Below are positions 43,073-51,180 of a stretch of 64,000 bases of DNA, one piece after another. Every line of letters begins with the position of its first letter. Positions within the stretch are counted from its first letter, which is position 1. Origin of the DNA: Saprospiraceae bacterium (GTDB lineage Bacteria; Bacteroidota; Bacteroidia; Chitinophagales; Saprospiraceae). The stretch spans positions 1 to 64,000 of the forward strand of contig JANWXM010000020.1 of assembly GCA_025055285.1 (NCBI GenBank). The letters are read 5' to 3'. The notes beneath the pieces are model-generated. The model was not told the origin of the DNA. It saw nothing but the letters and a program-made list of their open reading frames with translations, and made no database searches. Both the position numbers and the translations under genes were made by a program.

Positions 43073-43086
43073 GTGACTTTTGTCAC
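43073..43086 (+). promoter_or_regulatory. Crp/Fnr-type operator upstream of the cytochrome gene
   Basis: GTGAC-N4-GTCAC, a perfect palindrome and a full match to the GTGA-N6-TCAC core of Crp-type sites. Its centre (43079.5) lies 30.5 bp upstream of the -7 element, about -43 from the predicted start, which suits activation. A Crp/Fnr gene lies downstream in the same module. Confidence 0.72.
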
Positions 43087-43110
43087 GAAACGACGAACTT
43101 TTGGTTTCGT
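43085..43110 (+). promoter_or_regulatory. Second inverted repeat within the cytochrome promoter
   Basis: ACGAAAC (43085-43091) and GTTTCGT (43104-43110) form a perfect 7-bp inverted repeat with a 12-nt spacer, lying exactly between the Crp/Fnr site and the -7 element. Position suits a repressor or a second activator. Confidence 0.45.
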
Positions 43111-43117
43111 ACTTTTG
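43110..43117 (+). promoter_or_regulatory. -7 promoter element of the sulfur module
   Basis: TACTTTTG matches TAnnTTTG. The predicted transcript starts near 43123, about 70 nt upstream of the cytochrome start. No TTG at -33, consistent with a promoter that needs an activator. Confidence 0.6.
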
Positions 43118-43193
43118 TCCAAAATCCACAGGTTCAACACGTATTGAGCGATTTTGGCAGAATTTTTTTGGGACGGACTAAGTCTTGCAAAAG

Positions 43194-44384
43194 ATGGAGC
43201 ACAGAATTTACTATCCTATCATGTGGCTAGTTATTGCCGCCCTTGTGGTCGGAATCCTAGTTGTGACTAGCGCGCTAAGCTACTATCGGCGACAATTAGG
43301 CAACAATGAAACCCTTCAACAGATAGGCTTCCGGGAGCTTGCCTTTATAAAGGGCGTGCGCTGGACGTTGTGGTTTTTGGCCTCAGTGCTTACGGCGGCT
43401 GGCGTAGGCGCCTGGTATTGGGACCACAACCGCCAAAAAGCCTCTATCGAAGCCCGTAGGGCCAAGTTAATCCCTGCTTATGACCCCAAAAAACTATGGG
43501 AAGCTCCCGACCCTTTTTTAGCTGAAACAGATGAAGAGGCCGATTTAATCGCCTATGGGCGTCGCCTAATCGCGAACACACAAGACTACTTTGGAGAGAA
43601 GGGTATCGTGCGCCCAGGGACAATTAACGCCCTAAATTGCCAAAACTGCCATCTAGACGCAGGCACAAAGCCTTTCGGTAACAATTATTTTGCCGTGGCC
43701 AGCACTTATCCTCAATTTCGCGCGCGCTCAGGCTCAATAGAGACCATACCTAAGCGCATCAACGATTGTTTCGAACGCAGTCTCAACGGTCAGCCCCTAG
43801 ATACCAATAGCCGTGAAATGAAGGCGATTGTAGCCTACATGCGTTGGCTAGGCACGGGTGTACCCAAAGGAGAAAAACCCTATGGGGCAGGGCTCGTGCA
43901 AGTGCCCTTCTTAGATCGGGCAGCCGACCCAGCAAAAGGCAGGGTAGTATATGAAACCAAGTGCGCCTCATGCCATGGGCCCGATGGCCAAGGTCTTCCC
44001 ATACCAGGTAGTGAGAGGCGTTATCCACCTCTGTGGGGTGAAAGAAGCTACAATCAAGCTGCGGGACTGTTTCGCTTGTCGCGCTTCGCCGGATACGTCA
44101 AAGCCAACATGCCTCTGGGCGCTAGTCATCAAAACCCGCAGCTAACGGACGAGGAAGCCTGGGATGTAGCTGCGTTCGTCAATTCAATGCCTCGCCCCGC
44201 TCATCCTTTTTTGGACACCGATTGGCCAGACATCGCAACCAAACCCTTCGACCATCCTTTCGGTCCTTATGCCGACCCATTCCCCGAAACACAACACAAA
44301 TACGGACCCTTTAAACCTATAGTAGACTTCTACAAGCAAAAGGCCCAGCAGAAAGAAAAAGGCGGCCGTTTAACCGCTCGCTGA
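43194..44384 (+). CDS. Membrane-anchored diheme cytochrome c, TsdA-like (thiosulfate dehydrogenase family)
   Basis: 396 residues from ATG 43194 (a TTG start would add three). Two membrane helices come first (residues 10-28 and 57-75), then two cytochrome c domains: heme 1 at Cys149-His153 (NCQNCH) and heme 2 at Cys257-His261 (CASCH). The segment around heme 1 closely follows TsdA: CHLDAGTKPFGNNY, YPQFRARSGSIETI, then KRINDCFERSLNG with Cys192, which lies where TsdA has its unusual cysteine heme ligand, and AYMRWLGTGVP. TsdA joins two thiosulfates to tetrathionate (or the reverse). The membrane anchor is unlike the soluble form and suggests direct electron transfer to or from the quinone pool or an oxidase. 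First gene of the module. Confidence 0.88.
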   Translation: MEHRIYYPIMWLVIAALVVGILVVTSALSYYRRQLGNNETLQQIGFRELAFIKGVRWTLWFLASVLTAAGVGAWYWDHNRQKASIEARRAKLIPAYDPKKLWEAPDPFLAETDEEADLIAYGRRLIANTQDYFGEKGIVRPGTINALNCQNCHLDAGTKPFGNNYFAVASTYPQFRARSGSIETIPKRINDCFERSLNGQPLDTNSREMKAIVAYMRWLGTGVPKGEKPYGAGLVQVPFLDRAADPAKGRVVYETKCASCHGPDGQGLPIPGSERRYPPLWGERSYNQAAGLFRLSRFAGYVKANMPLGASHQNPQLTDEEAWDVAAFVNSMPRPAHPFLDTDWPDIATKPFDHPFGPYADPFPETQHKYGPFKPIVDFYKQKAQQKEKGGRLTAR

Positions 44385-44421
44385 GGAAAAACAACCTTGA
44401 AACAACAACTATACAGGAAAT

Positions 44422-46176
44422 ATGAAATTCATCCCTACTTATAACGACCACGCCACTCTTGCGAATCGGGCGCGTTCGCGTCGTCAGTTCTTGCGCAATA
44501 CGCTTCTGGCAGGCGCAGGTCTAGTTTTTCTGCCTAGGCTCAGTCCTAAACAAGAACAAACCCTGATAGAAACCGCACTAGCCGATAATACCCCTCCACC
44601 CGACGATTTGAACATGCCGCTCAGAGATGGAGTAATCACCCTGCTACAGACTACAGATGTTCATTGTCAAATTCACCCCCATGATGAAATGTTTTGGGAA
44701 AACAACCAGCCTGTGTTCCGAAAAGCAGGCGGCTACGCTCACCTCGCTACTTTTTTCGAAAAGGTGCGCAAAAGCAATCCCAACACTTTCATCGTAGATA
44801 CGGGCGATATGTTTCAGGGCAGTGCCCTATCAGCCAAAACAACTGGGAAGGCAATTGGCCCTATTCTCAATGCTTTAGGCTACGACCTGTACCTGCCGGG
44901 TAATTGGGAAGTGGTATATTATAAGAAGGCCATGCAGCAATTGCTAGGTGGCCTAGATGCGCCCAAAGTGTGCGCAAATATGTATCACGATCTGGGAAAC
45001 GGCCAAAGAGGCGAACTCATCTTTCCGCCTTATTACACGTGGTCGCGTTTAGGCGTGAAAATTGGCTTCCTCGGCTATACTGATCCACTCGTGCCGCTGA
45101 GACAGTCGCCCAATTATTCCAAAGGCATCCTCTACACTAAACCGGAAGAAAATCTCGCTTACTATGTCAAGGTGTTGCGCGAACAAGAGCAATGCGACTT
45201 GGTCATTATTTTAGCACACTTAGGTCTTTCTCAGCAGCTTGCCCTGGCTAATCTTCCCGAATGCGAGGGAGTGGATTATATTTTCGGTGGTGACACACAC
45301 GAGCGCGTGCGTCAGCCTATTGTTTGCAAATATGCCAAGGTGGTCGAACCCGGTGCTTTTGGTTCGTTTGTAGGCCGCCTTGATTTAGAGGTGAAGCAAG
45401 GAAAAATTGTCCGCCATCGCTACCAACTTATAGAAATCAACCCTAAGCGTTACCCGGCAAATGCCCACGTAGCTCGATTGATTGAGCAGTTAGAAGCTCC
45501 ATACCGAGAGCAGATCAATAAAGTCATTGGCTACAGTAAGGTGCCTCTATACCGGTATTTTGTTATAGAAAATACGATAGACACCCTAATTCTGGATGCT
45601 TTGTCGTGGAAAGTAAGCACAGATATCGTACTATCCAACGGTTTTCGCTTCTGCCCGCCGCGCGTCACTCCCGATGCTAGCGGCAACATACCCATTACTG
45701 AAGGCTATCTGTACGATATGCTGCCAGTAGATGCCACAGTGCGCACGGCCAAAGTGCGCGGCAGTGTGCTGCTTAAATGGTTAGAGAAAGAGCTAAACAA
45801 CGTTTTTGCCAAGGAGGCCGACAAACGTTTTGGAGGATGGTTGGTCAAATTTCGCGGAATGGAGGTAACGTTTTACGCTTATGGCGAGATGGGCCAGCGC
45901 GTCAAGAGCGTCAAAGTAGGCGGTCGGCCGCTCGACCCCGAAAAAATCTACACGGTAGCTGCTTGCGAACGCGATGGCGACCCAGAGACTGTCCTTTGCC
46001 GTATCCCAGAGGTGTTCGACGGCAAAAACATGCCATACACAATGCACGCGGTCTTGCGCGAATATTTAGCACAACATTCGCCCGTTTCTCCTATTCCCAG
46101 GGGCGATGCCAAAGCTCTAGATGCTCCGCCTACGCTACTCACACAGGTAAGCGGCGTGGACTATGCATTTTATTAA
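44422..46176 (+). CDS. Tat-exported metallophosphatase of the 5'-nucleotidase/SoxB family
   Basis: 584 residues. The N-terminus has a twin-arginine signal (SRRQFLRNTLLAGAGLVFLP). The metallophosphatase domain (about residues 70-330) has TTDVHCQIHPHDE, DTGDMFQGSAL, GNWEVVYYKK and ILAHLGLSQQ plus GGDTHERV, so all metal-binding motifs are there. The 5'-nucleotidase C-terminal domain covers about 370-560. GNWE in place of the GNHE of ordinary nucleotidases, with Tat export and a cytochrome partner, points to the SoxB side of the family (sulfate thiohydrolase, two Mn ions). SoxB acts on a carrier-bound substrate, yet no soxYZ is in this window, so the substrate may differ. 37 bp after the cytochrome gene. 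Confidence 0.85.
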   Translation: MKFIPTYNDHATLANRARSRRQFLRNTLLAGAGLVFLPRLSPKQEQTLIETALADNTPPPDDLNMPLRDGVITLLQTTDVHCQIHPHDEMFWENNQPVFRKAGGYAHLATFFEKVRKSNPNTFIVDTGDMFQGSALSAKTTGKAIGPILNALGYDLYLPGNWEVVYYKKAMQQLLGGLDAPKVCANMYHDLGNGQRGELIFPPYYTWSRLGVKIGFLGYTDPLVPLRQSPNYSKGILYTKPEENLAYYVKVLREQEQCDLVIILAHLGLSQQLALANLPECEGVDYIFGGDTHERVRQPIVCKYAKVVEPGAFGSFVGRLDLEVKQGKIVRHRYQLIEINPKRYPANAHVARLIEQLEAPYREQINKVIGYSKVPLYRYFVIENTIDTLILDALSWKVSTDIVLSNGFRFCPPRVTPDASGNIPITEGYLYDMLPVDATVRTAKVRGSVLLKWLEKELNNVFAKEADKRFGGWLVKFRGMEVTFYAYGEMGQRVKSVKVGGRPLDPEKIYTVAACERDGDPETVLCRIPEVFDGKNMPYTMHAVLREYLAQHSPVSPIPRGDAKALDAPPTLLTQVSGVDYAFY

Positions 46177-46191
46177 TTTTGCCTTAAAAGA
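46174..46191 (+). promoter_or_regulatory. Possible internal promoter before the small membrane protein and crp genes
   Basis: TAATTTTG (46174-46181) matches TAnnTTTG, and the 17-nt stretch starting at 46175 is repeated exactly at the carbonic anhydrase promoter (47542-47558). It overlaps the stop codon of the SoxB-like gene. Only a TCAC half-site lies where a Crp box would be. Confidence 0.4.
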
Positions 46192-46201
46192 GCACCCGCT
46201 T

Positions 46202-46432
46202 ATGAAAGCCTGGAATGACTGGAGGCTAATCCTCGTGCTCTGCCTTACCCTTGGTTTGGCGCCTTTCACACCCGAACCTCACCTGTGGGGCAAAATCCGC
46301 TGGGTAGTTGGCGGTGCAAAGAGCATGCAGCCGATGGATTGGCTTGACCTATTCATTCACGGCTTACCGTGGCTACTTTTGCTACGCATTCTAACCTTGA
46401 GGGCAAAGGAGAGCCTTTTTAAGAGAGCCTAA
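46202..46432 (+). CDS. Small two-helix membrane protein
   Basis: 76 residues from ATG 46202; an upstream ATG at 46163 overlaps the SoxB-like stop and would give 89. Two hydrophobic segments (residues 8-22, LILVLCLTLGLAPF, and about 49-65, LFIHGLPWLLLLRIL) flank a loop with PEPHLWGKIRWVVGG. Similar short proteins with the APFxPEPH-x-KxR pattern are often labelled RND transporter, without good reason. Role unknown; its position inside the module makes it a candidate membrane subunit. Confidence 0.7.
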   Translation: MKAWNDWRLILVLCLTLGLAPFTPEPHLWGKIRWVVGGAKSMQPMDWLDLFIHGLPWLLLLRILTLRAKESLFKRA

Positions 46433-46508
46433 ACCCTTGTGTAGCCAGGCAGCGCTGGAAAACTTATGACGGTGCAGCAAATCACATTCCTTTTTTCTTC
46501 ATAAAAAT

Positions 46509-47138
46509 ATGGAAAACTACCGCCATTTACTCCGAGACTTCGAAGAGCCGTTGTTCGCCGAAATGAAAGAAAAAGGCCGAATAGTGGAAGTCGAAGCAGG
46601 CCAAACGCTGTTGAAGAGTGGTCAACCGATCCGCAATACAATTATAGTGCTGGAAGGGCTTATAAAGCTCTTCCGGGAAAGCGATGAAGACGGCAGCGAA
46701 TTTTTTATGTACCACCTTCATCCCGGCGACGGCTGTGCGCTATCGATGATCTGCGACAAAGCCTTTCGCGTCAGCTCGGTCACCGCACGAGCGGTAACGG
46801 ATGCCAAACTTTTAGTCATCCCCCTAGAACACACCGAAAACTGGATGCGCCACTATCGCACGTGGTATCACTTCGTCGTGGGTACATATCGCCGGCGCTA
46901 TGAAGAACTTCTGGAAACGATTGACCACATCGCTTTTCAAAACATGGATGTGCGTTTAGAGTTTTACCTCCGCCGCCACAGCCAGGCGTTAGGAACTAAA
47001 ATACTAGAGATTACTAACACTCAGATTGCTCAAGAGCTCAATTCCTCGCGCGAGGTCATATCGCGCTTAATGAAAAAACTCTCCGAGGCAGGGAAGATTC
47101 GCCTCCTTAAAAACGGCGTAGAACTGTTAAAGATTTAA
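46509..47138 (+). CDS. Crp/Fnr-family transcriptional regulator
   Basis: 209 residues. A cyclic-nucleotide-binding-type beta-roll covers residues about 15-125 (ETL-type segment AGQTLLKSGQPIRNTIIVLEG, then LHPGDGCAL), and a winged helix 145-205 with ITNTQIAQELNSSREVISRLMKKL, whose ARG-like recognition helix carries SREVISR. The Arg of the cAMP pocket (RTAL in E. coli Crp) is not evident, and the N-terminal Fnr cysteine cluster is absent, so the signal is unknown; a Cys at LHPGDGCALSMICDKAF is near the pocket, and could sense redox. It lies inside the operon flanked by two Crp-type sites and is the obvious regulator for them. Confidence 0.93.
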   Translation: MENYRHLLRDFEEPLFAEMKEKGRIVEVEAGQTLLKSGQPIRNTIIVLEGLIKLFRESDEDGSEFFMYHLHPGDGCALSMICDKAFRVSSVTARAVTDAKLLVIPLEHTENWMRHYRTWYHFVVGTYRRRYEELLETIDHIAFQNMDVRLEFYLRRHSQALGTKILEITNTQIAQELNSSREVISRLMKKLSEAGKIRLLKNGVELLKI

Positions 47139-47503
47139 CCTAAAATTGTCGTAACCCAACGCAAGTTACCTCTTTCGCAGCGCACAGTGCCTGTCGAAAT
47201 GTATATTGTGCGTTACTGCGATGCAAAAGAGCACACCAGAGTGCGGCCTTCGGTAGTTTTTCGAAACAAGCCCGACAGCCGAGAGTGTAGGGCTTTTGTA
47301 CTGCTTTTCGACCTACCAAGATTTTGGAAAAAGCGGCATTTACATTACTTCAATCAAAAAGCCAACCCTGTGCCATGTTAGAGCCCCGAAGAGGTGGCCC
47401 GAGAAACTAACCCTTAGCTGCGAGAAGGTCAGTGCACCACCTGTGGCAGGCTATCCTTTGCTATTTGAGCACGAAAATCTTGAGTTTATTTTTCAAATTA
47501 ACC
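47139..47503 (+). other. Intergenic region after crp
   Basis: Holds the crp terminator (47268-47297). No gene is supported in the rest. Confidence 0.3.
47268..47297 (+). terminator. Putative terminator after crp
   Basis: AAGCCC (47268-47273) and GGGCTT (47290-47295) with a 16-nt loop and following TT. It is about 130 bp after the crp stop codon. Confidence 0.4.
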
Positions 47504-47517
47504 GTGATAAAAATCAC
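47504..47517 (+). promoter_or_regulatory. Crp/Fnr-type operator upstream of the carbonic anhydrase gene
   Basis: GTGAT-N4-ATCAC, a perfect palindrome and match to GTGA-N6-TCAC. The centre (47510.5) is 30.5 bp upstream of the -7 element, the same distance as in the cytochrome promoter. Confidence 0.72.
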
Positions 47518-47540
47518 TCTCAACACAGAGACCCTTTCTT

Positions 47541-47548
47541 CAATTTTG
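47541..47548 (+). promoter_or_regulatory. -7 promoter element of the carbonic anhydrase operon
   Basis: CAATTTTG differs from TAnnTTTG only in the first base. The predicted start is near 47554, about 14 nt before the ATG. A weak -7 with an upstream Crp/Fnr site suits activator-dependent expression. Confidence 0.5.
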
Positions 47549-47567
47549 CCTTAAAAGATAGGTTACT

Positions 47568-48293
47568 ATGTTTCGTCGGAGAGCGCCCTTGTTTTTATTT
47601 GTTGTCGTAATTTTAATTGATTCAGTCCAATGCCGCTTCTCCCGCCCGGTAGAGAAGCGCCCATCCACACCTGAAGCTGCACTGGCCGCCCTCTTAGAGG
47701 GCAATCAGCGTTTTTTAGCTGGCGCTCTTCGGCATCCGCATCAGACCCAACGGCGCGTACGTGAGGTGGAAAATGCCCAGCATCCCTTTGCCGTGGTGGT
47801 TTCGTGTTCCGATAGTCGTGTGCCGCCCGAAATTATTTTCGATGAGGGAGTAGGTGACCTATTTGTTATTCGCACAGCGGGTAATTTGCTCGGAAATCTA
47901 GAGTTAGGTAGCATCGAATATGCTGTAGAACATTTAGGCTGTCCTTTGGTGGTTGTGCTAGGGCACACGGAGTGTGGAGCCATTAAGGCCTTTCTATCTG
48001 GTGGAGAGTGCCACGGTCATATCCGCGACATCATAGAGGCCCTTCGTCAAGAAAAAGAAGAGCAACAAATTTTACAGAGAGAAGGCAAAAACCTCAACAC
48101 GTGCATCGAAGGAAATGTCATTCATGGCGTCACTCAAATTCGCCAGCAGCCTGTTATCATGGAGAAAATGAAGCGTAAAGAAGTTAATGTCGTACCTATG
48201 ATTTACGATGTCCACACGGGAAAAGTCTCTGTAATTAATGAAACAGCTTGGCTTGAAGCACACGCCTTCCTTCCCATTGGAGATAAAAAATAA
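47568..48293 (+). CDS. Exported beta-class carbonic anhydrase
   Basis: 241 residues. The zinc site is complete: Cys and Asp of CSDSRVPPE, and His/Cys of LGHTECGAIKA. The family opening (LLEGNQRFLAG) and HPFAVVVSCSDSR follow at normal positions. A signal peptide precedes (RRRAPLFLFVVVILIDSVQC), so it works in the periplasm, unlike the standard cytoplasmic type. It hydrates CO2 to bicarbonate and a proton. In this module it may buffer the periplasm, where thiosulfate oxidation and sulfate hydrolysis change pH, or supply bicarbonate; that is inference. Followed 62 bp later by the DsrE-like gene. Confidence 0.93.
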   Translation: MFRRRAPLFLFVVVILIDSVQCRFSRPVEKRPSTPEAALAALLEGNQRFLAGALRHPHQTQRRVREVENAQHPFAVVVSCSDSRVPPEIIFDEGVGDLFVIRTAGNLLGNLELGSIEYAVEHLGCPLVVVLGHTECGAIKAFLSGGECHGHIRDIIEALRQEKEEQQILQREGKNLNTCIEGNVIHGVTQIRQQPVIMEKMKRKEVNVVPMIYDVHTGKVSVINETAWLEAHAFLPIGDKK

Positions 48294-48355
48294 ACCCGAG
48301 GAGAAAAGACCAGACTAAGATCACAAATTAAAGATAATGCAAACGATACATAAAA

Positions 48356-48817
48356 ATGAAGAAAATGAGACCTTTGGCTCCCTACATTATCGGTGCCCTC
48401 ATGGTGGGGGTGGCACTAAGTCTCTTTTCCTTTTCCAGTCGTTTTACAAAAGAAGAAGGAGAGAAAAAGAAAATCCACCGCGTAGTTTTCCATGTTACGA
48501 CCCCAGATACTGCAGCTTATCGGGCTTTAATGCGCCAGTTAAACAATGTGCTAGACAAATGGCCTGATGCTCGTATCGAAGTGGTAGCGCACAACAAGGG
48601 TATTCAGTTGTTGCAGAAGAGCAAAACCAACGTCTCGGCCGAACTGGGTGCGCTCAAGAAGAGGGGAGTAAACCTGTACGCCTGCGAATTTACCCTTCAA
48701 CAGCAGGCAATAAGCAAAGAAGATATCGTGCCAGAATCGGGATACGTAGAGCGCGGTATCATTCACATTATCGAACGTCAAGAGGCGGGCTGGGCCTACA
48801 TTAAGGCGGGATTTTGA
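48356..48817 (+). CDS. DsrE/DsrF-like sulfur-relay protein, membrane-anchored or exported
   Basis: 153 residues. An N-terminal hydrophobic segment (residues 7-27, LAPYIIGALMVGVALSLFSF) makes it an exported or anchored protein. The rest follows the DsrE/F fold: RVVFHVTTPDTAAYRALMRQLNNVL, IEVVAHNKGIQLL, LKKRGVNLYACEFTLQ (Cys at the position of the reactive cysteine in DsrE-like proteins), and GYVERGIIHIIERQEAGWAYIKAG at the end. DsrE-type proteins carry sulfane sulfur as a persulfide. In this module it could take sulfur from the cytochrome or SoxB-like enzyme. Confidence 0.85.
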   Translation: MKKMRPLAPYIIGALMVGVALSLFSFSSRFTKEEGEKKKIHRVVFHVTTPDTAAYRALMRQLNNVLDKWPDARIEVVAHNKGIQLLQKSKTNVSAELGALKKRGVNLYACEFTLQQQAISKEDIVPESGYVERGIIHIIERQEAGWAYIKAGF

Positions 48818-48832
48818 GTTATCCCTTGCGAA

Positions 48833-48865
48833 GGCCTCGCTTAACCGCACCGCTGTTGCGAGGCC
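48833..48865 (+). terminator. Putative terminator after the DsrE-like gene
   Basis: GGCCTCGC (48833-48840) pairs with GCGAGGCC (48858-48865), 15 bp after the stop codon; 17-nt loop, no U-run. It separates the DsrE-like gene from the porin gene. Confidence 0.45.
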
Positions 48866-48970
48866 CATTACCGTAGACTAACGGATAAGCTGCATGTGCT
48901 GGTTTAGCCGTCTTGCGGTTGATACAAGCAGGCGGTGACAAATTGTTTTTTTTTTTTACCCAACGAGATT

Positions 48971-50386
48971 ATGCGGTATTCTGTATATTCTGTAGTAGCA
49001 TATTTTTTTCTTTTTTTAGCGGCTCGGGCAGAGGCCTTGAGGATGCCAACGGACACAGCGAGCCCCCAGGGGCAACAGCCCAAAGTTGAGCATATCCTCC
49101 AGGCCTTTGAGAAAGGTCAGCACGGTGGGCAGTTTCGGACGTTTATCATGCTGACGGACAACGGTGGCTTGCTCTCGGATTATTATGCATGGGCCGCTGG
49201 AGGATGGCTGCATTTTCAAACTGCCTGCTGGCGCGGCTTCAGTATGGGCATAGGTGGAGCATTTAACTTCAACCTACTGTCAACGGACTTGAGCGCACGC
49301 GACTCAGCAACAGGAGCTATTAACCGCTATGAAATAGGCTTGTTTGATGTGGAAAATCCGCGAAATCGCCGCGACTTAGACCGACTGGAGGAGTTGTGGA
49401 TCCGTTACGAACGGCAAGGGCTGAGCCTAACGGTGGGCCAACAACTCCTTCAAACTCCTTTTATCAATCACCAAGATGGACGGATGCGCCCAACAGCAGA
49501 GTCGGGTGCCTGGCTAGAGTGGCAGAAAGGGCGTAATTTGAAGGTAGAAGGTGGCTGGCTATGGCGCATTTCGCCGCGCAGCACTGTGCGTTGGTATACT
49601 GTAGGAGAGTCCATAGGCCTGTATCCTCGCGGTATTAATCCTGATGGGTCGGCTAGCGGCTACTCAGGCAATTTAAAGAGCAAGGGAGTTGGCTTGATCG
49701 GCATCACCCTCAAGCCCTATCCTCATTTGGCAGTACAGTTGTGGAATCAATACGTGGAACAGATTTTCAATACAGTTTTTTTGCGAGCCGATTATCAACG
49801 TCCTCTTCCGCGCGGACACCGTTGGATAGGAGGCCTAATGTTTCTTCGCCAAGACGCCCTTGCCCATGGAGGCCATGCGGAACCCTCGAAAACGTATTTC
49901 CCTGCGCGAGGCCGGTCTTTTGCGTTTAGCGCCCAGGCTGGCTGGCAACGCGGCTCCTGGCAAGCGAAGATTGCTTACACACGCGTGACCGCTCACGGGC
50001 GTTTTTTGTCGCCGCGCGAGTGGGGCCGTGAGCCCTTCTACACCTTTCTTCCCCGAGAGCGCATCGAGGGTAGCGGCGGCTCACACTCCATCACAGGCCG
50101 GCTCATATGGGCTCCTGAAAACAACCGCTGGGTAATAGAGGCTGCTTACGGTCATTTCTACCTCCCCGACGTGCACAACACGGTGCTCAACAAGTATGGA
50201 TTTCCAGCCTTTCAACAGTTCAATTTAGATATCCGTTATACCTTCAAAGGCCTTCTGGAGGGCTTGCGCGGGCAGATCCTGTACGTCTGGAAAGGGCGTC
50301 TGGGCGAATTTTACGGCAATTATCGCTACATCATCAATAAGGTAGATATGTCGCACGTTAGCCTAGTGCTTAATTATTCTTTCTGA
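48971..50386 (+). CDS. OprD-like outer-membrane porin
   Basis: 471 residues from ATG 48971, chosen because a signal peptide starts there (MRYSVYSVVAYFFLFLAARAEA). After an N-terminal segment with QGGQFRTFIMLTDN-type residues, many amphipathic strands follow (GLSLTVGQQLLQTPFINHQDGRM, AWLEWQKGRNLKVEGGWLWRI, GHFYLPD), and it ends in VSLVLNYSF with the C-terminal aromatic of a beta-barrel. This is the OprD/porin superfamily. Being next to the sulfur module suggests it admits the anionic substrate. A run of 12 T precedes the start by 15 bp, which may change length and so tune expression. Confidence 0.8.
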   Translation: MRYSVYSVVAYFFLFLAARAEALRMPTDTASPQGQQPKVEHILQAFEKGQHGGQFRTFIMLTDNGGLLSDYYAWAAGGWLHFQTACWRGFSMGIGGAFNFNLLSTDLSARDSATGAINRYEIGLFDVENPRNRRDLDRLEELWIRYERQGLSLTVGQQLLQTPFINHQDGRMRPTAESGAWLEWQKGRNLKVEGGWLWRISPRSTVRWYTVGESIGLYPRGINPDGSASGYSGNLKSKGVGLIGITLKPYPHLAVQLWNQYVEQIFNTVFLRADYQRPLPRGHRWIGGLMFLRQDALAHGGHAEPSKTYFPARGRSFAFSAQAGWQRGSWQAKIAYTRVTAHGRFLSPREWGREPFYTFLPRERIEGSGGSHSITGRLIWAPENNRWVIEAAYGHFYLPDVHNTVLNKYGFPAFQQFNLDIRYTFKGLLEGLRGQILYVWKGRLGEFYGNYRYIINKVDMSHVSLVLNYSF

Positions 50387-50776: not shown

Positions 50777-50850
50777 TCGGGACGACTGGATTCGAACCAG
50801 CGGCCACACGCCCCCCAGACGTGTACTCTACCGGGCTGAGCTACGTCCCG
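50777..50850 (-). tRNA. tRNA-Pro(GGG)
   Basis: Minus-strand cloverleaf with acceptor CGGGACG/CGTCCCG, anticodon loop CTGGGGG (anticodon GGG) on CACGT/GCGTG, T-arm GGTTCGAATCC, and discriminator A. CCA is not encoded. Confidence 0.94.
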
Positions 50851-50865
50851 CTTAGCACTTTTTAG

Positions 50866-50940
50866 TGGGTAATACTGGATTCGAACCAGTGACCTCACGC
50901 GTGTGAAGCGTGCGCTCTAAACCAACTGAGCTAATCACCC
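50866..50940 (-). tRNA. tRNA-Val(CAC)
   Basis: Minus-strand cloverleaf with acceptor GGGTGAT/ATTACCC, anticodon loop TTCACAC (anticodon CAC) on CACGC/GCGTG, and T-arm GGTTCGAATCC. It is 15 bp upstream of tRNA-Pro(GGG). Confidence 0.94.
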
Positions 50941-50957
50941 TTTTTTAATTTTTAATG

Positions 50958-51031
50958 TCGGACCAACTGGATTCGAACCAGTGACCTCCACGATGTCAAC
51001 GTGGCGCTCTAACCAACTGAGCTATAGCCCG
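50958..51031 (-). tRNA. tRNA-Val(GAC)
   Basis: Minus-strand cloverleaf, anticodon loop TTGACAT (anticodon GAC) on CCACG/CGTGG. The acceptor stem (CGGGCTA with TGGTCCG) contains two G:U pairs. First gene of a three-tRNA transcript. Confidence 0.93.
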
Positions 51032-51180
51032 CAACCGACATGTGGCGCGCTTTTGCGCCATCGGGGCAGCAAAGGTAAGGTGACTTCAAGCATTCATGCA
51101 AGGGAAAACGCATAAGATTTTTTGTCCTTCGCACAAGAGGGTAAAATACGTATTGTTGCATCGCCAAAGGCGTGGTTGGT

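Follow-up and report, generated by a model that had tools for sequence, protein, structure and literature searches.

We analysed a 64,000 bp window of DNA from a Saprospiraceae bacterium (positions 1 to 64,000 of contig JANWXM010000020.1, GenBank assembly GCA_025055285.1), in which the region from 43194 to 50386 holds seven genes, all on the plus strand. In our reading, to which we assign a probability of about 0.7, these genes encode the periplasmic portion of a thiosulfate oxidation pathway that does without SoxYZ and is governed by one Crp/Fnr regulon. They specify a TsdA-type cytochrome, a SoxB-like hydrolase (SoxBL), a small membrane protein, a Crp/Fnr regulator, a beta-carbonic anhydrase, a DsrE-family protein and an OprD-like porin. 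An earlier sequence-only reading had listed the same seven genes and joined them into one thiosulfate-using system. All seven were present where it had placed them, Pfam families agreed for six (the small protein matches none), and motif, tree and linkage support, at the level of sequence, a common function. The window is nearly all of contig C12 (64,155 bases) of a 3.6-Mb genome, whose closest named relatives, among the matches listed, are Saprospiraceae/Chitinophagales metagenome genomes.

A TsdA-type cytochrome and a SoxB-like hydrolase

Judged by family and alignment, the first gene encodes a TsdA-type diheme cytochrome. The product contains a Pfam SoxA-TsdA domain (43.8 bits, cut-off 27) and a cytochrome c domain, and is the sole match of its kind in the genome. 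The sequence-only reading would have been undermined by closest kinship to non-TsdA diheme proteins; the best solved relatives are the thiosulfate dehydrogenases 4wqc (E 1e-45), 4wq7 (about 1e-45) and 4v2k (3e-45), with the cytochrome 5lo9 (E 1e-39) as a further relative. Both heme motifs, C149xxC152H153 and C257xxC260H261, are invariant in 12 aligned rows, as are Met306 and Cys192. The latter lies in the sequence DCFERSLNG and aligns with the Cys of 4wqc and 4v2k, in agreement with the membrane-anchored cytochrome with TsdA motifs described earlier; we regard Cys192 as a candidate axial ligand of heme 1. Asn305 precedes Met306 at the ligand site of the second heme, a position occupied by Lys or Asn in the A. 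vinosum chains.

The second gene product, SoxBL, combines the Pfam domains Metallophos and 5_nucleotid_C. Its best NCBIfam model is that of SoxB (TIGR04486), at 248.8 bits and below the cut-off of 550, and phmmer placed SoxB 2wdc (1e-29) ahead of the nucleotidase 2z1a (6e-19). A Foldseek search with the AlphaFold model (mean pLDDT 84) likewise returned SoxB structures first (1.5e-40). Nucleotidases followed closely (6e-39), so that the structure comparison proposed by the sequence-only reading came out on the side of SoxB but the fold alone is not decisive; the motifs decide. The catalytic His of GNH nucleotidases is a Trp both in the SoxBL family and in SoxB (GHWE, SHWE and similar xHWE rows). 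GNWE was found in 20 of 20 loci fetched from relatives with wider flanks, in 10 of 10 loci from a phylum sample (247 genomes, each at least 90% complete) and in all 80 named loci, which are the best 80 of at least 561 confirmed SoxBL relatives from a scan of species-representative genomes. Because one of the two peptide patterns used to retrieve the named loci includes GNWE, only the fetched and phylum-sample loci are an unbiased test of this motif; moreover, named loci L061-L081 and fetched loci L032-L051 share genomes, and the sets are not independent. SoxBL keeps the nucleotidase Asn where SoxB has His. In 109 of 110 rows the GHTH/GHSH motif has Asp in place of His; the exception, from the phylum sample, carries Gly. 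The catalytic roles of these positions are those known for nucleotidases. SoxBL begins with a Tat-like RRxFL, in which RR and F are invariant in 38 aligned rows; a fixed pattern recovered this start in 77 of 101 cases.

A 40-row tree divided 33 Trp-type rows from 7 GNH nucleotidase rows (split 100/100), and the phosphatase did not fall with the nucleotidases, the grouping that would have spoken against the sequence-only reading. Within the same tree SoxB (10 rows) and SoxBL (16 rows) form separate clades (100/100 each), accompanied by further Trp-type branches from Bacilli/Hymenobacter and haloarchaea. A 46-row quick tree returned the same groups and put SoxBL closer to other Trp types than to SoxB (support 93). 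The trees are midpoint-rooted with long branches (flagged by the program), and any choice of a nearest Trp-type group for SoxBL is tentative. By sequence, SoxBL is a clade of its own in a Trp-type superfamily common to SoxB, neither a typical nucleotidase nor a canonical SoxB. Two simpler identities were rejected: canonical SoxB by the sub-cut-off TIGR04486 score, the position outside the SoxB clade and the lack of SoxY, and ordinary nucleotidase by motif, tree and linkage. The earlier description of a Tat-exported SoxB/5'-nucleotidase family enzyme thus held for motifs, domains and the Tat-like start, though not for SoxB itself.

Other Trp-type relatives of SoxB were seen near sulfur genes. 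On one Pontibacter plasmid (L253) three kinds are neighbours: SoxBL with GNWE, a further Trp type with AHWE and a nucleotidase type with GNHD. Trp-type relatives named as nucleotidases (set L145, L144, L251) stand beside TusA, TauE and MBL genes in Sporosarcina, beside rhodanese and multicopper oxidase genes in Halobacterium sp. DL1, and with MBL, YeeE and cytochrome bd genes on the conjugative Sphingobium plasmid described below.

SoxBL was detected in 34 of 36 same-genus genomes; among 23 others it was strong in two and weak (near 1e-21) in two more. In 18 of the fetched loci tsdA is the gene directly upstream of SoxBL, and in the remaining 2 it lies some 4 kb downstream; dsrE is nearby in 14. 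At least 8 kb was available on both sides in 39 named loci. Within that distance of SoxBL they contained TsdA (32), YeeE1 (28), YeeE2 (27), MBL-rhodanese (24), DsrE (23), small rhodanese (22), OprD (21), Crp (19) and TauE/SafE (17), and the genes, whose separation in relatives would have spoken against the sequence-only reading, mostly stay together. Neighbour labels were assigned by BLAST to cluster members. Those of the MBL-rhodanese, both YeeE halves, the rhodanese and the desaturase-like protein of the genome itself were checked against Pfam, TauE is consistent with the Runella annotation, and SQR, thioredoxin and SDR were named from sequence by eye. The genome encodes its MBL-rhodanese and a YeeE pair (PF04143, DUF6691) away from the window locus.

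The set also occurs on plasmids. In pRUNSL04, a 45-kb plasmid of Runella slithyformis DSM 19594, genes for TauE, MBL, thioredoxin, cytochrome, DsrE, SoxBL, OprD, YeeE and DUF6691 lie on one strand, the hydrolase being named bifunctional metallophosphatase/5'-nucleotidase in the database. On a plasmid of Hymenobacter sp. NBH84 the set is similar, with another Trp-type relative filling the hydrolase slot, and a conjugative Sphingobium plasmid joins a Trp-type hydrolase (another Trp subgroup in the 46-row tree) to MBL, YeeE/DUF6691, TauE and cytochrome bd genes. In Pontibacter akesuensis SoxBL adjoins the cytochrome, a partial module. Six loci (L117, L124, L130, L132, L133 and L138; five Algoriphagus, one Cyclobacteriaceae) have gene cluster c6 after SoxBL, five of them c16 and c7 as well; cytochrome-like c10 stands upstream in four, and the TsdA label occurs in none of the six stretches.

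SoxY and SoxBL did not coincide. In the phylum sample SoxY was found in 30 genomes, 29 of them scoring above the cut-off, and SoxBL in 11 at E below 1e-190; SoxY was found in 0 of those 11. Twenty-seven of the 30 SoxY genomes belong to one family (f36), which would be Chlorobia, and SoxB is there a more distant match (about 1e-55). The genome under study gave no soxY, soxZ or dsrA match, in line with the absence of soxYZ and dsrAB noted earlier near the locus, although the soxZ search gave no hit in the control genomes either; the SoxA model scored 40.6 against a cut-off of 110.

The DsrE-family protein matches PF02635 at 32.1 bits (cut-off 22.7) and has the DsrE/YchN fold (1l1s, E 5e-11; 1jx7, 1e-4; 2hy5, 2e-4). 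Cys110 is present in all 54 rows (45 of them distinct), and in both of the common gene orders dsrE adjoins, or stands between, tsdA and the SoxBL gene. We suggest that this protein acts as a sulfane sulfur acceptor.

A Crp-type palindrome and the layout of the locus

The position at which the sequence-only reading began the module, 43073, coincides exactly with a GTGAC-TTTT-GTCAC palindrome. The window has two GTGA-N6-TCAC sites, this one in front of tsdA and a second, at 47504, in front of the carbonic anhydrase unit. The whole genome contains nine GTGAY-N4-RTCAC sites, seven preceding sulfur-related units and two intragenic, and 11 sites of the reversed pattern, which served as control and fell inside called open frames in 11 of 11 cases. 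Besides the two units in the window, the palindrome leads an MBL-rhodanese gene (site 82 bp before); a periplasmic rhodanese gene with a desaturase-like gene behind it (here the site coincides with the called start, itself probably placed too early); a gene for an Fe-S/NrfD fusion (104 bp), with genes for a Mo enzyme of 951 aa and a SulP/STAS permease downstream; a second SulP gene (71 bp); and two small rhodanese genes followed by cydA/cydB-like genes, named by eye (66 bp). A chance pattern was considered and rejected: the counts alone would allow it, and the placement rules it out.

Placement is similar in relatives. The same seven units carry sites in genome G035 (7 of 10 sites) and six of them in G018 (6 of 13). 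In G034 sites stand before tsdA, TauE, OprD, YeeE1, MBL-rhodanese and crp (6 of 19), that before the crp ortholog at a distance of 84 bp; two of the other 13, when examined, preceded genes for a small exported protein and a kelch-like protein. Palindromes were also seen before a PEP-synthase-like gene (G035, L238 site 2036) and a small monooxygenase-like gene (G018, L247 site 2017), both named by eye. GTGA-N6-TCAC lies upstream of tsdA, or at its called start, in 10 of the 20 fetched loci, and before the carbonic anhydrase gene in L032 and L033. After genes lacking a clear upstream gap had been dropped, the looser TGAY-N4-RTCA preceded TsdA in 10/25 cases, MBL-rhodanese in 10/30, TauE in 5/23, YeeE1 in 3/16, DsrE in 0/14 and other genes in 13/352.

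The linked Crp protein would be the reader of the palindrome. A fixed pattern for its cysteine pair matched 17 of 38 linked Crp proteins and none of the other 21; with the pair in only 17 of 38, Crp types differ between lineages.

The seven genes probably form two units, tsdA-soxBL-small protein-crp and carbonic anhydrase-dsrE-oprD, 429 bp apart, the latter transcribed separately and preceded by a palindrome of its own. For the cytochrome the ATG at 43194 is the probable start, and for the small protein the ATG at 46202.

Features of the locus, with positions in the window and the evidence for each
Feature	Position	Strand	Basis or remark
Crp-type palindrome GTGACTTTTGTCAC	43073..43086	.	GTGAC-TTTT-GTCAC, 5' of tsdA
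tsdA, membrane-anchored diheme cytochrome c, TsdA type	43194..44384	+	Pfam, solved relatives, alignment; Cys192 candidate heme ligand; Met306
soxB-like (SoxBL), predicted Tat-exported dimetal hydrolase, GNWE motif	44422..46176	+	Pfam, NCBIfam, phmmer, tree, Foldseek
Small two-helix membrane protein (an 89-aa protein in the Pfam search)	46202..46432	+	no Pfam family
Crp/Fnr-family regulator, GDGCALSMIC cysteine pair	46509..47138	+	Pfam Crp; candidate palindrome reader
Second Crp-type palindrome GTGATAAAAATCAC	47504..47517	.	5' of carbonic anhydrase unit
Beta-carbonic anhydrase, probably exported (judged by eye)	47568..48293	+	Pfam Pro_CA
DsrE-family protein, exported or N-anchored	48356..48817	+	Pfam DsrE; Cys110 invariant
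OprD-like outer membrane porin	48971..50386	+	Pfam OprD

The small protein, for which a Pfam search gave no match, is kept near SoxBL in 11 of the 20 fetched loci and is possibly a membrane partner of the module. Its core, PEPH..GK.RWV.GGA..M...DW.DL..H..PW.LL.R, is strongly conserved between the window and L032, L038, L039, L041, L043, L045 and L047. The carbonic anhydrase gene neighbours SoxBL in two fetched loci (L032 and L033). Directly past the module, at 50780-51035 on the minus strand, the sequence looks by eye like three tRNA genes.

Proposed pathway and alternatives

Gene identities by family, conservation, linkage, phylogeny and operator placement were obtained directly; from these we infer all catalytic steps and their order, together with the roles given above to DsrE and Crp. 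Thiosulfate would enter the periplasm via the OprD-like porin and be converted by TsdA to tetrathionate (or an equivalent S-sulfonate), with electrons passing to the respiratory chain. SoxBL would then cleave off the terminal sulfonate as sulfate, and the remaining sulfane sulfur would be taken over by Cys110 of the exported DsrE protein and by the periplasmic rhodanese. Import would be the task of the split YeeE/DUF6691 pair, after which the cytoplasmic MBL-rhodanese (persulfide dioxygenase type) would produce sulfite. A Soe-like Mo/Fe-S/NrfD enzyme could oxidise the sulfite, and SulP proteins could move the sulfate. The first part of this route has a precedent in Erythrobacter flavus 21-3, where deletion mutants give the order TsdA (thiosulfate to tetrathionate), SoxB, sulfur dioxygenase (PMC7608252). 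The E. flavus SoxB forms sulfate and zero-valent sulfur from tetrathionate, not from a SoxYZ adduct (PMC7608252; PMC9426585), and Bacteroidetes are named among the groups with both tsdA and soxB homologs (PMC7608252).

Several observations weigh against this pathway or its regulon. By count the palindrome is unremarkable: two sites were reached in 10 of 100 shuffles of the window, and the genome has nine sites to 11 for the control. Among the control sites, one is at the same time 82 bp upstream of a second frame, and one falls within a rhodanese-domain gene. Five of the seven targets are outside the window; two of them were module genes known beforehand, and the sulfur link of the other three was assigned after the search. 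No site accompanies the YeeE pair or a second MBL-rhodanese copy of the same genome, and beyond the genus the exact palindrome is less frequent (GTGA-N6-TCAC near 11 of 52 TsdA genes in the named loci). TsdA is absent within 8 kb in 7 of the 39 well-covered loci (L077, L088, L092, L130, L132, L138 and L140), three of them Algoriphagus, which indicates that SoxBL can exist without linked TsdA. SoxBL has GDTHE where SoxB has GHTHD and nucleotidases GHSH, and with its position outside the SoxB clade this means that its substrate may differ. The Soe-like name and role are putative; they derive from subunit make-up (951-aa Mo subunit, 537-aa Fe-S/NrfD fusion) and the missing Tat start (no RR start was seen), and the best NCBIfam models, PhsA and TtrB, score far under their cut-offs. 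Finally, for short YeeE pairs (PmpAB) a function like that of full-length sulfur importers has been proposed, but the same work saw no sign that PmpAB serves sulfur oxidation in Hyphomicrobium (PMC11582611).

The same genes could be arranged differently. DsrE might be a surrogate for SoxYZ, the covalent carrier of a Sox-like cycle: TsdA, alone or with tetrathionate, would load thiosulfate onto Cys110, and SoxBL would cleave the DsrE-Cys-S-S-sulfonate to persulfide and sulfate. The position of dsrE in both common gene orders, the invariant Cys110, the DsrE fold and the SoxBL genomes devoid of SoxY are all consistent with such a carrier. On the other hand, DsrE is not near SoxBL in 16 of the 39 well-covered and 6 of the 20 fetched loci, and it does not have the Cys-bearing C-terminal arm that SoxY has. 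With tetrathionate itself as the substrate in E. flavus (PMC7608252; PMC9426585), we consider a DsrE carrier unlikely. Equally doubtful is its fullest form, a Bacteroidota Sox-like cycle with exported DsrE as carrier and one sulfane-sulfur-sensing Crp, with its cysteine pair, over the whole thiosulfate-to-sulfate route. Alternatively, the regulon may serve to clear thiosulfate, tetrathionate and polysulfide made by others with little gain of energy, TauE/SafE exporting sulfite where present. TauE/SafE within 8 kb in 17 of the 39 loci would fit this, as would a persulfide dioxygenase step that conserves no energy (PMC12345210), but the entry cytochrome and the palindrome-led Soe-like NrfD enzyme and cydAB-like genes point to use of the electrons, and we give detoxification or scavenging a small share of the probability.

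Two further readings concern single enzymes. An Asn before the heme-2 Met is tied to a bias towards reduction, and Asn305-Met306 would thus suit a TsdA working as tetrathionate reductase in tetrathionate respiration; the co-regulated dioxygenase-type MBL-rhodanese and sulfite/sulfate genes point instead to oxidation, and make this very unlikely. That the phosphatase is an ordinary exported nucleotidase, near sulfur genes by chance, is the least probable of all, barely credible despite the database name, both Pfam domains and nucleotidase folds nearly as close as SoxB, for all 20 relatives retrieved without use of the motif have Trp in place of the catalytic His, the protein lies outside the nucleotidase clade and TsdA is linked in 32 of 39 loci.

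Comparison with known systems

The sequence-only reading had supposed that the chemistry may be new. The E. flavus route weakens this claim, since TsdA, SoxB and dioxygenase already act in series there (PMC7608252). Both tsdA and a fused dioxygenase-rhodanese are reported in Bacteroidetes bins (PMC7887784), and TsdA with SoxB alone is discussed in PMC12345210. Apparently new here are the SoxBL clade, the DsrE-containing island and the palindrome regulon, of which we found no description in the literature searched, mostly without subscription papers and preprints. At least one sulfur survey used a tree to set soxB apart from 5'-nucleotidases ahead of its counts (PMC6704655); with such exclusion and a nucleotidase database name, SoxBL may be missed in surveys. 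If our pathway is correct, SoxYZ-free thiosulfate oxidation is a common, sometimes plasmid-borne trait of Bacteroidota, and the palindrome offers a direct means to list the pathway genes in close relatives.

The cytochrome resembles the TsdA structures 4wqc, 4v2k and 5lo9 in its two CxxCH hemes and the Cys of DCFERSLNG, and differs in its N-terminal membrane anchor and the Asn before the heme-2 Met; the alignment with 5lo9 extends about 25 residues deeper into the C-terminal part than those with the other structures. SoxBL shares domain architecture and fold with 5'-nucleotidase/UshA/CD73, whereas GNH has become GNW and GHSH has become GDTH. With the canonical Sox system (SoxXA-YZ-B-CD) the locus has in common a SoxB superfamily hydrolase with Trp for the nucleotidase His and a SoxA/TsdA cytochrome domain; unlike that system, it comes with no SoxY or SoxZ match in the genome, a sub-cut-off SoxA score and a hydrolase outside the SoxB clade. 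The YeeE pair is built like PmpAB from two short YeeE-family halves, PF04143 and DUF6691 (PMC11582611), and linkage suggests its role here. From the E. flavus TsdA-SoxB-SdoAB system, as far as that is described, ours would be set apart by the separate SoxBL clade (in trees drawn from other organisms), the linked exported DsrE and OprD, the Crp-type regulon and the Soe-like unit. The two are alike in TsdA, in an MBL-rhodanese and in SoxB-domain proteins annotated as metallophosphatase/5'-nucleotidase; the E. flavus cluster is induced by thiosulfate (PMC7608252), and in the genome studied here tsdA and soxBL are adjacent, the MBL-rhodanese stands behind the same palindrome, and SoxY has no match.

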